A program made the translations under genes and the position numbers. Below, piece after piece: positions 34,892-45,761 of a DNA stretch of 64,000 bases. The stretch spans positions 1-64,000 of the forward strand of contig NZ_JAKZKV010000003.1 of NCBI RefSeq assembly GCF_022808675.1, in the 5' to 3' direction. The notes below the pieces were generated by a model, which ran no database searches, had not been told where the DNA came from, and worked only from the letters and a program-made list of their open reading frames with translations. The number at the start of each line of letters is the position of its first letter. Position 1 is the stretch's first letter. The DNA is from Parabacteroides sp. FAFU027. GTDB taxonomy: Bacteria; Bacteroidota; Bacteroidia; Bacteroidales; UBA7332.

Positions 34892-36340
34892 ATGAAACAG
34901 TTCTACCTACTACTCTCTTGCCTGGTTCTAATAATGAACCTTTCGGCTCAACCCTATAAGGCCGTCTACTCAAAACGCACCTGCCTCTATCTGGCTAAAC
35001 ATCATGATCCAAACGCTTATCTTGCAGAATACGAACAAGGTTACACCTCCCTCCGATTCGACTCAACAAAGGTGATTAACTGTGACTCTGTTTTCTTCCC
35101 CCACCCTGTCATTCAGTATAATGGGGGCCAATGTTACTCTCCGGAATGGTCGTGGATTGGCAAAAAGGTGATTGTACGGCCCGATGAAACCGTTTTCTTT
35201 ATTAATTGTGACGGAGATACCATCCGTTTAAAGGCGCAAGCGGGCCTAAAGGAGAGTTGGACAGCTTATCAGCAAAACCTGACCACCGTGATCGCTGAAG
35301 TTACAGCCCTTGATCAGAGAGTTTTTCTCGGATTGAAAGATTCAGTCAAAACCATTTCATTCAAGGTATATGATGCCACCATGAAGCCTACCCCGCATAT
35401 GCTCGATACGCTAACGATCCTGTTAAGCAAACATTACGGCATTATTCAGTCTCTCAATTTCTACAACTTCCCCAACCGCTTCCTGAGCACATACTCACTC
35501 GAAGGAATGGACAATCCCCAAGTGGGCGTGCAAAACCTGACATGGAAGGATGTGTGGGATTTTCAGCCAGGGGATGAGTTGCATATTACTACCGAAAACT
35601 ATGCCGGCATTCCGAGTCCGATTAGATTATTCTCAAAAACTATTGATAAATATCTTGCCCGAACTCAAATAGCAGATACAATTATATATACCATTGACAG
35701 AACCGAGAGCTTTTGCATTGACTCTGTAGGAGAAAAAACTACACAAATCACTCACGGTATAATTACGGACAAAATCTACCCTAATCTCCAATTTGATTTT
35801 CTATCAAAAGAAAACAACAGCTCATACCCCAAAAATGAATTCAATTGCATGATTCAGTCAGATTCAAATTCTAAACAATCGAATGCAGTTCCATTAGTTA
35901 ATCTTCAATCGTGCTGGAATGAAATAATGGCCGATGGTTGTTTTGCCGCTAAAAACTATCAAAGGGGATTGGGCGGTCCTTATTTTTATTGCGATGGTTT
36001 TGACGCTTTTAGTATAGCAAGGCGTGATCTAGTCTATTACAAAAAAGGCAGCACCGAATGGGGAAACAAACTCATAATCACAGGCGTGACAACACCGGTG
36101 CAAGAGAATCCCATTTCCGTAAATATAAACGAGAATAAACAGTTGACTGTAAAAGTAGCTCCCGAGCAACTTCCCTGCATATTGGAATTGATCAGTCTGG
36201 CGGGTACGGCCGTTCAGAAATCAAAACTCGGCAATATCGTCAACGAGTTGAATCTGCAGAACCTGTCTACAGGCATCTATCTCTATCGGATCACATCCTC
36301 CGGAAGGAATGCAGCTTGTGGCAAAGTGGTGCTAAAATGA
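34892..36340 (+). CDS. Secreted protein with T9SS C-terminal sorting domain
   Basis: A 482-residue exported protein. The start at MKQFYLLLSCLVLIMNLSAQ (34892) gives a clean signal peptide; an in-frame upstream start would put a second hydrophobic run before it. The body contains several Cys residues and no recognised enzyme motif. The last ~75 residues resemble a type A sorting domain: VNINENKQLTVKVAPEQLP, then LELISLAGTAVQ, LNLQNLSTGIYLYRI and a final GKVVLK. It ends 13 bp before the 42-bp repeat array. Function unknown. Confidence 0.78.
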   Translation: MKQFYLLLSCLVLIMNLSAQPYKAVYSKRTCLYLAKHHDPNAYLAEYEQGYTSLRFDSTKVINCDSVFFPHPVIQYNGGQCYSPEWSWIGKKVIVRPDETVFFINCDGDTIRLKAQAGLKESWTAYQQNLTTVIAEVTALDQRVFLGLKDSVKTISFKVYDATMKPTPHMLDTLTILLSKHYGIIQSLNFYNFPNRFLSTYSLEGMDNPQVGVQNLTWKDVWDFQPGDELHITTENYAGIPSPIRLFSKTIDKYLARTQIADTIIYTIDRTESFCIDSVGEKTTQITHGIITDKIYPNLQFDFLSKENNSSYPKNEFNCMIQSDSNSKQSNAVPLVNLQSCWNEIMADGCFAAKNYQRGLGGPYFYCDGFDAFSIARRDLVYYKKGSTEWGNKLIITGVTTPVQENPISVNINENKQLTVKVAPEQLPCILELISLAGTAVQKSKLGNIVNELNLQNLSTGIYLYRITSSGRNAACGKVVLK

Positions 36341-36352
36341 TGATTTAAGACC

Positions 36353-36618
36353 TCTTCCCTTGCGAATTTGGCAAACCAATACTCAGGAAAGCCCTTCGCA
36401 CTTGCGAATATGGCAAACCGGATCTAAAACAAGAACTTTGCAACTGCGAAGAGGACAAACCAGACTTAAAACAGGATCTTCGCGCTTGCGAACGTCATGT
36501 TTTGATTCTAAAACAAGGAATTCGCAAGTGCGAAGAAGGCAAATGAGTTCTGAAACAGGGTCTTCGCAAGCGCAAAGAGGTTTCTTCGGCTTCAAAACAT
36601 AGAATCCGCAATTTCACA
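36353..36618. repeat. Tandem array of 42-bp units with TTCGCA-N2-TGCGAA dyads
   Basis: Units begin at 36353, 36395, 36437, 36479, 36521, 36563 and 36605, exactly 42 bp apart. Each starts with a 14-bp dyad of the form TTCGCANNTGCGAA (for example TTCGCACTTGCGAA, TTCGCGCTTGCGAA, TTCGCAAGTGCGAA), with decay at both ends. The remaining 28 bp share only a loose pattern (GGCAAAcc...ctAAAACAgga). The array fills the gap between the T9SS gene and DUF6261. Reading frames across it are by-products of the period being divisible by 3. Confidence 0.85.
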
Positions 36619-36642: not shown

Positions 36643-37401
36643 ATGAAAAGCTTTATGAAACAAATCCAATCAATCAACCTGTACAATCTTCGCAACGAAG
36701 AACATTACCAGCTGATGAGTGACGTCAAAACTCAAATCGAAACCGAAATGCCTGAAAAGCTGGCGATAGTTGCTGAATTCACCTCTTTTAAACAAGTACT
36801 GGAGGTAGAGGGTAACGCCATCCAGAGCGAACTGGGCAGTGTATTGACCAAACCACTGGTGGATGCCGATGCCTACCGCGACCAGCTCCACAAAGGGCTG
36901 GAAACTAACTTTGACTCATTCACCTATCATTATGATGAGGCCAAAAGGGAGGCTGCCCGTAAGCTCACGCGCCTCTTTGGCCAATATGGTAACCTTCGAA
37001 TAAAACCCTATAATGAAGAGAGCGCCGCCCTCACCGCGTTGGTCAGGGAATTGACCACCACTTACCTGGCCGAAAACACGCTCCTTGGCGGAGTGGAATG
37101 GACAGCCAAAGTGGAAGAGGCTAACAACCATTTCATCACCCTGTTTAATGACCGCAACAACGACATTGCCTCCCGCTCGATAGGCAATGTACGGGAAACA
37201 CGCGCAGCTGTGGACCCGGCATTTCAGGAAGTGGTGGATGCCATCAATTACCTGGCTAAACGCAACGAAGCCCTGTATGGTGGGATAATCGACCGCATCA
37301 ACCAACTGATCAGCTACCACAAAACCACGCTGGCTGCCCGTAAGGGACGTGCGGTAAAAACGGTAGAAGGTGCAACGACACCGACAACCGGGCAGAATTA
37401 A
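36643..37401 (+). CDS. DUF6261 family protein
   Basis: A 252-residue mostly helical protein of a Bacteroidota-specific family. The N-terminus reads IQSINLYNLRNEEHYQLM, a block I associate with DUF6261. Further features are YHYDEAKREAARKLTRLF and a C-terminal helix AINYLAKRNEALYGGIIDRI, then a Thr-rich disordered tail (VEGATTPTTGQN). No catalytic motif and no signal peptide are visible. ATG at 36643 or 36655 could start it. It lies between a 42-bp repeat array and a palindromic repeat. Function unknown. Confidence 0.78.
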   Translation: MKSFMKQIQSINLYNLRNEEHYQLMSDVKTQIETEMPEKLAIVAEFTSFKQVLEVEGNAIQSELGSVLTKPLVDADAYRDQLHKGLETNFDSFTYHYDEAKREAARKLTRLFGQYGNLRIKPYNEESAALTALVRELTTTYLAENTLLGGVEWTAKVEEANNHFITLFNDRNNDIASRSIGNVRETRAAVDPAFQEVVDAINYLAKRNEALYGGIIDRINQLISYHKTTLAARKGRAVKTVEGATTPTTGQN

Positions 37402-43493: not shown

Positions 43494-43589
43494 AGCGATT
43501 TTATTTGAAGCAAAATGGAAGCTCTCACAAATATAGCTATTCTCAATGGATTAAACTTTCTACATTTGCCTTTCAATTTGCTTATCACC

Positions 43590-44423
43590 ATGAAGTGCAG
43601 GATTTTAATGGACAACACGCCGGATAGCGAAAGCCGGCTGCAATGTGAACACGGGCTGAGCCTGACATTCAGCATAGGCGGTCAGCAATGGCTGCTCGAC
43701 ACCGGCGCTACCGGACTCTTTGCCGGAAATGCCAGACAGATGGGTATCGACCTTAACGACATCGACTACCTCGTGCTTACTCATGCGCATTACGACCATA
43801 CCGGCGGTCTGGAGGTTTTTCTAAAGGAAAATGACCACGCTCCGGTATTCCTATCCGATAAAATCACCGACAATAGCTACTATTCCAAACGCAATGACGG
43901 CAAACGAAACATCGGTATCCGCCACGAATTGTTTGAGCAGTATCCGGAGCGCTTCTTCCGGCTCTCCGGCAATCGTTGGATAACTCCCGAGGTAGCGGTG
44001 ATTTCCGACTTCGGAAACGATTACCCCAAACCCCAAGGGAATCGCATGCTCTATCACGGAGACCATCCCGACACCTTCGAGCATGAAATAGCACTGGTCG
44101 TTCGTACCGGCAGAGGCAACGTCGTCTTTACCGGATGCGCCCATAACGGATTGCTCAACATCCTGCACGTAGCCCACCGTTTCGCTCCCGAAGCGCCTAT
44201 CATTGCAGCCATCGGCGGCACTCACCTGATTGACCCTCGGGAGGGACAGAGCTTTGAAAGTGAAGACGAGATTAAGGCTATGGCAAATGCCCTGACAACT
44301 GATTTTCCGGGAATCCGATTGATTACGGGGCACTGTACCGGACAGACTGCCCGGCTGATTCTTATGGAAAAGATGGGTATAAAATTGGAGTGGTTTTGTT
44401 GCGGATATGAGGTGGAAATATAG
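43590..44423 (+). CDS. MBL-fold metallo-hydrolase (COG1237-like)
   Basis: A 277-residue metal-dependent hydrolase. The start at MKCRILMDNTPDSES (43590) follows a -7-like TACATTTG (43561-43568); an upstream extension would lie before the transcript start. The metal site is LTHAHYDHTGGLEVF (HxHxDH), with WLLDTGATGLFAGNA before it, VFTGCAHNGLLNILH, and GGTHLID near the end. COG1237 members include enzymes of methanopterin-like synthesis, but the substrate in Bacteroidota is unknown. Confidence 0.88.
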   Translation: MKCRILMDNTPDSESRLQCEHGLSLTFSIGGQQWLLDTGATGLFAGNARQMGIDLNDIDYLVLTHAHYDHTGGLEVFLKENDHAPVFLSDKITDNSYYSKRNDGKRNIGIRHELFEQYPERFFRLSGNRWITPEVAVISDFGNDYPKPQGNRMLYHGDHPDTFEHEIALVVRTGRGNVVFTGCAHNGLLNILHVAHRFAPEAPIIAAIGGTHLIDPREGQSFESEDEIKAMANALTTDFPGIRLITGHCTGQTARLILMEKMGIKLEWFCCGYEVEI

Positions 44424-44569
44424 GGGCGACTAAATGCAGACATTGTTGCACACATATTGCCATAAAAAAGATGTAGGGTATGGGATATTTTAATTGGACA
44501 ATCTATCTAAGACCCCGATTTGCCAAAGAATTTATCGGGATATTGCTCAATTTATCCCGGATAGAGTTT

Positions 44570-44758
44570 GTCCCAAGTCGGACAGACACTGTCCTACTTA
44601 GGACGAGGTTCGTCCCAAGTAGGACAAGACTTGTCCCAAGTAGGACGGAGTTCGTCCTAGTTAGGACAAGAGTCGTCCGAAGTAGGACAGAGTCCGTCCC
44701 AGTTGGGACAGCTTTCGTCCGGGTTGGGACAAGGTCTGTCCCGGTTTGTTAGAGTCTT
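44570..44758. repeat. Tandem array of 21-bp units with GTCC-N6-GGAC dyads
   Basis: Nine units begin at 44570, 44591, 44612, 44633, 44654, 44675, 44696, 44717 and 44738, exactly 21 bp apart. The first eight each carry the 14-bp dyad GTCCnnnnnnGGAC (for example GTCCCAAGTCGGAC, GTCCTACTTAGGAC, GTCCGGGTTGGGAC) with a variable 7-bp linker; the ninth is decayed. The six central bases vary while GTCC and GGAC do not. The array occupies the gap between the MBL-fold gene and the MNT-HEPN pair. Confidence 0.9.
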
Positions 44759-44809: not shown

Positions 44810-44883
44810 CGAAACAACCTATACAAAAAAGCCTTTCAAAATCCGTTGCCTGACCCGAAAGGCTTTCTCTTTTGGAAAAGTAA
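44810..44883. repeat. Direct repeat with terminator hairpin, left copy
   Basis: CGAAACAACC, then AAAAAAGCCTTTCAAA, a hairpin closed by GCCTTTC/GAAAGGC, and TTTTGGAAAAGTAA. The last 59 nt match the right copy (45685-45761) with three substitutions and one indel. The two copies flank the MNT-HEPN genes. The stem has A and T runs, so each copy can act as a terminator. Confidence 0.85.
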
Positions 44884-44949: not shown

Positions 44950-45279
44950 ATGGAAATCAATCGCGAAAATATCGAAGCCTTATTGGGAACAATCGTAAAG
45001 AGACTGTTGCCACTCAATCCTTCCAAAATTATTCTTTTCGGCAGCTATGCCTATGGTACACCAACATCAGATAGTGACCTGGATATTTGTGTAGTCAAGA
45101 AACAAATTCTTTCCAAAACAAAAGAAAAACGGGAAATCAGGGAAAAGCTGAAAGATATTGAGGTCGCCAAGGATATTCTTATCCCATCGGAAGAAGAATA
45201 TGAGTTTTATCGCAAACAATATGGTTCGGTTTTTATGGATATTGATATGAAAGGACGAGTGTTATGGCAGAATTCCTGA
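44950..45279 (+). CDS. mntA: MNT-type nucleotidyltransferase antitoxin
   Basis: A 109-residue minimal nucleotidyltransferase with the core GSYAYGTPTSDSDLDI: GS and G at 31-36, then the metal-binding DxD in DSDLD (41-45). In MNT-HEPN toxin-antitoxin systems this protein modifies (AMPylates) the HEPN toxin to silence it. Here it is followed by the HEPN gene with a 16-bp overlap. The operon lies between two terminator-type direct repeats. The partner and order are typical; AMPylation itself is inferred. Confidence 0.88.
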   Translation: MEINRENIEALLGTIVKRLLPLNPSKIILFGSYAYGTPTSDSDLDICVVKKQILSKTKEKREIREKLKDIEVAKDILIPSEEEYEFYRKQYGSVFMDIDMKGRVLWQNS

Positions 45280-45662
45280 GTCAATACCAGCTACTATTCA
45301 ATAAGGCCCGAACAGATTATCATGCTGCACAGGTTTTATTTCAAAGCTTCAATCGGGGGGATAGCGAACTTGATTTGGAAGTTATCTATTTCCACTTGCA
45401 GCAATGCGCCGAAAAATGTTTTAAATCAATTCTCTCCTACCATCAGGTCAATTTTCCCAAAGTACATGACCTAGAGCTATTGGTAAATCTCCTTCATCCA
45501 TTAAAAATTGAATTGCAAGCCGATACTGAACTGCTTATCGAACTGAGTGACTTCGCTGTAGAGGGGAGATACAACATTATTCATGACGATTTAGAACAGG
45601 CTCAACAATATTTCCGTGAAGTAGAAATTCTTCTAACGCAAGTTAAAGCCCTGATATCCTAA
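45264..45662 (+). CDS. hepT: HEPN-domain ribonuclease toxin
   Basis: A 132-residue all-helical HEPN protein. The RX4-6H active site is present as GRYNIIHDDL (Arg102, His107). LEVIYFHLQQCAEKCFKSIL is the conserved helix of the family, with the FHLQQCAEK[CA]xK pattern. HEPN toxins are RNases, usually kept inactive by the MNT partner. It overlaps mntA by 16 bp. A 22-bp gap separates it from the right-hand direct repeat, which holds the terminator. Confidence 0.88.
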   Translation: MAEFLSQYQLLFNKARTDYHAAQVLFQSFNRGDSELDLEVIYFHLQQCAEKCFKSILSYHQVNFPKVHDLELLVNLLHPLKIELQADTELLIELSDFAVEGRYNIIHDDLEQAQQYFREVEILLTQVKALIS

Positions 45663-45684: not shown

Positions 45685-45761
45685 CGAAACAACCCAACAA
45701 GAAAAAAGCCTTTCAAAGTCCGTCGCCGGACCCGAAAGGCTTTCTCTTTTGGAAAAAGTAA
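45685..45761. repeat. Direct repeat with terminator hairpin, right copy
   Basis: Same structure as the left copy at 44810-44883. This copy also has a perfect inner hairpin GTCCG-TCGC-CGGAC (45718-45731) that is lost in the left copy. It sits between the convergent hepT and carboxyltransferase genes and probably terminates both. Confidence 0.85.

Follow-up and report, generated by a model that had tools for sequence, protein, structure and literature searches.

An array of 21-bp dyads in the window (the whole 64,000-nucleotide stretch of DNA analyzed here) is one of five such arrays in the genome and, as judged from its sequence pattern, may well be a cis-acting, iteron-like DNA element, about 200 bp long, to which a dimeric and probably cooperative protein binds. 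Exact GTCCNNNNNNGGAC dyads, 21 bp apart, were found at 44570, 44591, 44612, 44633, 44654, 44675, 44696 and 44717, and a ninth repeat start at 44738 (GTCCCGGTTTGTTA) carries the left arm only and is a half unit. The exact pattern search of the window therefore bore out the sequence-only reading, in which nine starts every 21 bp from 44570 to 44738, with the 14-bp dyad kept in the first eight, had been reported. Tandem Repeats Finder gave periods of 21, 42 and 63 for the array. One further exact dyad was detected in the 64 kb, a solitary one at 45718, which is about the chance level. The parts of the array and its surroundings are as follows.

43515..44423, + strand, metallo-beta-lactamase-fold protein (Lactamase_B), upstream neighbor of the array
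44551..44562, + strand, left end of the array, TTTATCCCGGAT, from comparison of the ends of the five arrays of the genome
44563..44569, + strand, outer linker AGAGTTT
44570..44737, + strand, eight 21-bp units, GTCC-N6-GGAC plus the 7-bp linker RRNNNYY
44738..44749, + strand, right end of the array, GTCCCGGTTTGT (GTCCCGGATAAA in the C3b array at C3:137998)
44825..44876, + strand, terminator-like hairpin (AGCCTTTCAAAATCC ... GAAAGGCTT), from sequence comparison with the congeneric genome G002
44950..45279, + strand, nucleotidyltransferase (MNT-like) of an MNT/HEPN pair, downstream neighbor of the array
45264..45662, + strand, HEPN-domain partner of the MNT-like nucleotidyltransferase

The phased GTCC-N6-GGAC motif is not a one-off, since five arrays are present in this genome and three in G002. 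In the 4.9-Mb genome, the pattern of two dyads at a 21-bp step matched 28 times per strand, always within the five arrays, and the reversed control pattern gave 0 matches. The arrays are located at C2:345295, C2:507484, C3:44570 (window), C3:137998 (C3b) and C4:204319 and comprise 39 dyads in total, with eight units per array and seven in C4. Each of the five occupies intergenic DNA: three take up nearly the whole gap between convergent genes, and two lie between codirectional genes. The ends of the arrays are alike, with TTTATCCCGGAC or TTTCATCCGGGAC on the left and a GTCCCGGATAAA-like sequence on the right, which are approximately inverted copies of each other. The left end of the window array resembles those of the others (TTTATCACGGAC, TTTCATCCGGGAC, TATTCATCAAGGAC) and, when inverted, matches the right end of the same array imperfectly. 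Beyond the arrays, nothing common was found among the five loci, indicating that the element is the array itself. The window and C3:137998 arrays are collinear unit by unit (z = 3.0), which identifies them, by their sequence, as whole-array copies. Neighbors of the arrays encode MBL, MNT/HEPN, glycosyltransferases, fucosidase, an ammonium transporter and CysS; no replication initiator gene was found in or near the arrays at the five loci, and no phage genes adjoined them.

Across the 39 units, the column consensus was GTCC [CTG] A [AGC] [GTC] T [AGC] GGAC R R N N N Y Y. This pattern is symmetric about the centers of both core and linker, so that the array reads as half-sites, YYGTCCYA and TRGGACRR, in alternating orientation. 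Each 21-bp unit consists of two inverted copies of one degenerate half-site; from center to center the half-sites are spaced 10 and 11 bp, so that every helical turn carries one, and all dyads face the same side. Arms that vary as freely as the linkers had been named in the sequence-only reading as evidence against phased sites, but deviations from the consensus were found at 5 of 312 arm bases versus 126 of 273 linker bases. The proposal of selection on the arms and not on the center held for the arms, which are nearly fixed, but was too simple for the rest of the unit. A at position 6 and T at position 9 vary as little as the arms, the linkers begin with two purines and end with two pyrimidines, and the central two bases are rule-bound. 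Despite the 126 linker deviations, no spacing change was detected among the dyads of this genome; about nine would be expected if gaps accumulated as in the flanks (about 2 for 29 substitutions), a rough estimate.

Copy number was compared with that in the congeneric genome G002, as the sequence-only reading had suggested for strains. Three of the five arrays are present at orthologous sites in G002, and two-unit changes were found in two of them, which are shorter by exactly 42 bp; the only differences in the third are substitutions. In G002, the window site has an ortholog of the lactamase-fold protein with 94% identity and no array behind it. The terminator-like hairpin (44825..44876), which was not called by a strict terminator scan, is within a few bases of the lactamase-fold stop codon in G002 and about 400 bp further down in the window, and the window array sits inside this extra DNA. 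Differences between the two genomes were found at 5 of 160 arm positions, 7 of 60 positions of the NNN linker center and 29 of 401 flank positions. Arms differed from NNN at P = 0.02 and from flanks at only P = 0.08, and the latter value counts against the iteron-like reading. Arm conservation between species is modest evidence, and the contrast within the genome is stronger. An empty site for the C3:137998 array was sought in G001 and G003, in which the neighbor gene has no ortholog. A search of other Bacteroidales, also suggested beforehand, matched 3 of 393 genomes of the order, namely, this genome, G002 and G357, which has a different-looking repeat (also L017). Apart from the G357 repeat, the motif was restricted in the sampled order to a single genus, in which two of three genomes have it, and in a phylum search of 395 genomes with a related pattern this genome was the only match. 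Many matches in a wider contig search looked like GC-rich direct repeats and were left out of use. At the level of sequence, these comparisons show a dispersed family whose ends are alike, in which whole units are gained or lost and related species can differ in whether a site carries an array.

The window contains a second phased array at 36353-36600, flanked by a gene whose end is at 36340 and by a DUF6261 gene (36643-37401). It consists of TTYGCNNNNGCGAA dyads (TTYGC-N4-GCGAA) at exact 42-bp steps, and a motif of the AAAACAAG/CTTGTTTT type lies midway between the dyads, giving the 21-bp register again. Several of its central tetramers (ACTT, AACT and AAGT) also occur in the GTCC arrays. Elsewhere in the genome, one further array of the type was found (C8:192790), and none was clearly present in the family's three other genomes. 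From this, dyad arrays on a 21-bp register seem to be a more general feature of this genome. DUF6261 was not found in plasmids and viral contigs.

Similar arrays were found in other phyla. Plasmid pTS1 of Treponema saccharophilum (NZ_AP025289.1, about 131105-131365; L101:3907-4165) has an intergenic array of 21-bp GTCCNACTTGGGATGRAGTYC units that is 69% identical to the window array over 163 bp (blastn, E = 1e-4), and one of its linkers, GGAGTTC, is identical to a window linker. The pTS1 array differs in that it has GGAT instead of GGAC, is more homogeneous and is located on a large spirochaete plasmid. In the Verrucomicrobia MAG CALMOL (G393; L104-L116), more than 20 contigs matched with RTCC-NN-SS-NN-GGAY dyads. 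These arrays have several core families (TC..GA, AA..TT and TG..CA), none of which was found in viral contigs, and random linkers; their dyads are 21 bp (87) or 22 bp (26) apart, never 20 or 23. In the phage contigs L094 (1238-2245) and L099 (265-1209), a 21-bp array lies inside replication initiation genes (PHROGs naming), and the array-bearing gene of L094 is located beside a DnaC-like loader gene and an ssb-like open reading frame. In L131 (1639-1827), an array of seven units lies immediately upstream of ssb, and the purine/pyrimidine pattern of its linkers is similar. The arrays of L094, L099 and L131 are probably phage replication origins. The phage examples were retrieved with the GTCC/GGAC pattern, so that their shared arms are partly selected by the search. 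The Treponema and Verrucomicrobia arrays were likewise found via the same outer arms and may be homologous or convergent. When the plasmid and phage collections were searched with the arrays of this genome, one Treponema plasmid and no phage were matched, and the half-site pattern of this genome gave one chance-like match only in the sampled phages. Protein-mode matches in Paracoccus and Streptomyces proved to be a simple 7-bp repeat and an unrelated short array and were rejected. Neither the window nor arrays from three phyla gave a match in Rfam scans, and no description of such arrays was found in a literature search.

The central dinucleotide at positions 7 and 8 (44576-44577 in the window and every 21 bp) was AG, GT, CT, AC, GG or GA. 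Self-complementary centers occurred in none of the 39 units, where 12 were expected, and exactly one of A at position 7 and T at position 8 was present in 37 of 39 (P = 5e-9). Self-complementary centers were also depleted in the Verrucomicrobia arrays, with 51 observed versus 66.8 expected (within arrays, P about 0.0003). Found separately in two phyla, this rule is a strong constraint for any mechanism to explain.

In the iteron-like reading, a dimeric protein would fill the dyads side by side, cooperatively, on one face of the helix, and the filled dyads would make up a wrapped complex or a nucleoprotein filament, comparable to that of lambda O on its iterons. In the lambda O-some, every iteron has the form of an inverted repeat, and all are occupied in a row by the initiator; the iterons of lambdoid origins are likewise tandem inverted-repeat sites of about 20 bp that are bound side by side (PMC7466680). 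The element may spread or be kept because of this binding, and the complex could function in chromosome organization, as a mark at gene 3' ends or in titration of a phage or plasmid initiator. The exact 21-bp phase of 39 dyads in five arrays supports this reading, as do the phage arrays with the same dyad and phase in initiator genes or upstream of ssb. Like iterons, the arrays are tandem, equally spaced sites with a conserved core. Unlike those of lambdoid origins, they lie outside initiator genes, with none in or beside an array, and in five copies in one chromosome, and neither an AT-rich unwinding region was recognized nor is an initiator known for them. The cognate protein was not found; the best match to an HTH_36 initiator in this genome was weak (E = 0.005). 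A protein alone also leaves the never-self-complementary central dinucleotide unaccounted for, which counts against the iteron-like reading, as does the lack of this genome's half-site pattern in the sampled phages beyond the one chance-like match. Extended to all of these arrays, the idea becomes a speculative one that we hold only tentatively: a previously unnamed cross-phylum class of dispersed phased dyad arrays, with a 21-bp register, lineage-specific arms and a non-self-complementary center, might serve with a dedicated filament-forming protein, sharing ancestry or logic with phage initiators, as a scaffold for the chromosome or as a sink that draws off foreign initiators. If real, the arrays would be a sequence-defined bait for a DNA-binding protein and would tie chromosomal repeats from at least three phyla to the iteron logic of phage origins of replication.

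The arrays might instead act through base pairing, with the dyads folded into consecutive hairpins or into a single long one in 3' untranslated RNA or single-stranded DNA, with a role in transcript end formation or stability, as a protein sponge or in the manner of REP/BIME; we consider this rather unlikely. It agrees with the position of all seven phased arrays of both families behind gene 3' ends (four of the seven between convergent genes) and with that of the window array, which the G002 comparison puts between the stop codon and the terminator-like hairpin. The window RNA also folds far better than dinucleotide shuffles (z = -10.8). This strong score vanished against shuffles of the columns among units, for which the minimum free energy was no better for most of 16 array strands, and one long hairpin was rejected on this ground. 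Base-pair covariation, as expected of a structured RNA, was absent. Complementarity beyond chance was not found at partner positions 5-10, 15-21, 16-20 and 17-19 in the 39 units of this genome or at 1-14 and 6-9 in the 113 Verrucomicrobia units (within arrays), indicating that the half-sites vary independently. The arms are fixed in sequence and not compensated, a row of hairpins does not need an exact 21-bp phase, and Rfam offers no counterpart. REP/BIME and other repetitive extragenic palindromes are likewise dispersed in intergenic DNA and often clustered, but the arrays differ from them in the exact phase and in having few loci with many units each. RAYT-associated REP/BIME carry a GTAG or CGTC tag at the hairpin foot (PMC3733652), which is absent from the units of this genome (GTCC/GGAC with RRNNNYY linkers). 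PF01797 (RAYT/Y1 transposase) genes occur in all four genomes of the family, with and without arrays, and none was beside an array at the loci examined, a subset of the Y1_Tnp loci; an association with RAYT was rejected. With no covariation, folding similar to that of column shuffles and length kept while linkers drift, reading of independent half-sites by a protein would fit better than base pairing. Between the half-site-binding protein and the RNA or DNA structure offered by the sequence-only reading, the protein is thus better supported; its functional part we infer, since the search yielded no binding protein.

A second doubtful alternative, of similar standing, is a selfish dispersed repeat with no present function, MITE- or satellite-like, spread by an enzyme acting on the ends, in which the likeness of the units is due to descent and slippage. 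The TTTATCCCGGAC-like ends do form approximate terminal inverted repeats and the flanks are not shared; presence and absence between species, two-unit copy changes, paralogous collinear arrays and the sporadic distribution also agree with it. However, plain descent does not give fixed arms and undrifting spacing with nearly random linkers, no target-site duplication was established, and the RAYT/Y1 transposases follow the arrays neither among relatives nor in position. The window site is array-free in G002, but the indel of about 400 bp is larger than the array. TAACTGA-type intergenic heptamer arrays (PMC4679880) are likewise sporadic, cross-phylum, short tandem arrays between genes, but they are 7-bp direct repeats without dyad symmetry. 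CRISPR was rejected because of only 8 to 10 fixed bases per unit, 7-bp linkers and no CRISPR match in the Rfam scans. It is improbable that the arrays are chromosomal decoys or remnants of phage or plasmid iterons that titrate a foreign replication initiator. Phage arrays of the same architecture do lie in initiator genes, and in a laboratory precedent the replication of lambda in Escherichia coli is blocked by plasmids that carry oop together with the lambda iterons, an effect abolished by iteron deletion (PMC3349717). However, the lambda effect also requires oop RNA, no phage genes lie beside the arrays, and no phage or plasmid initiator locus with the half-site of this genome was found in the collections searched. 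Least probable is a heptapeptide-repeat protein, for which 21 bp would be seven codons. The frame VPSRTxF is open in an open reading frame at 44480-44752 and, with the strand as oriented, through every array of this genome, but the dyad rules themselves keep it open, and in four of the five arrays it is also free of stops on the opposite strand. Deviations at codon positions 1, 2 and 3 numbered 68, 70 and 55, with no third-position excess; on this codon-position pattern, together with stops in other frames and the frame-breaking 22-bp steps of related arrays elsewhere, the coding reading was rejected.

Just downstream of the window array, the MNT-like nucleotidyltransferase and its HEPN partner (44950-45662) form a pair that is likely toxin-antitoxin-like and probably unrelated to the array.
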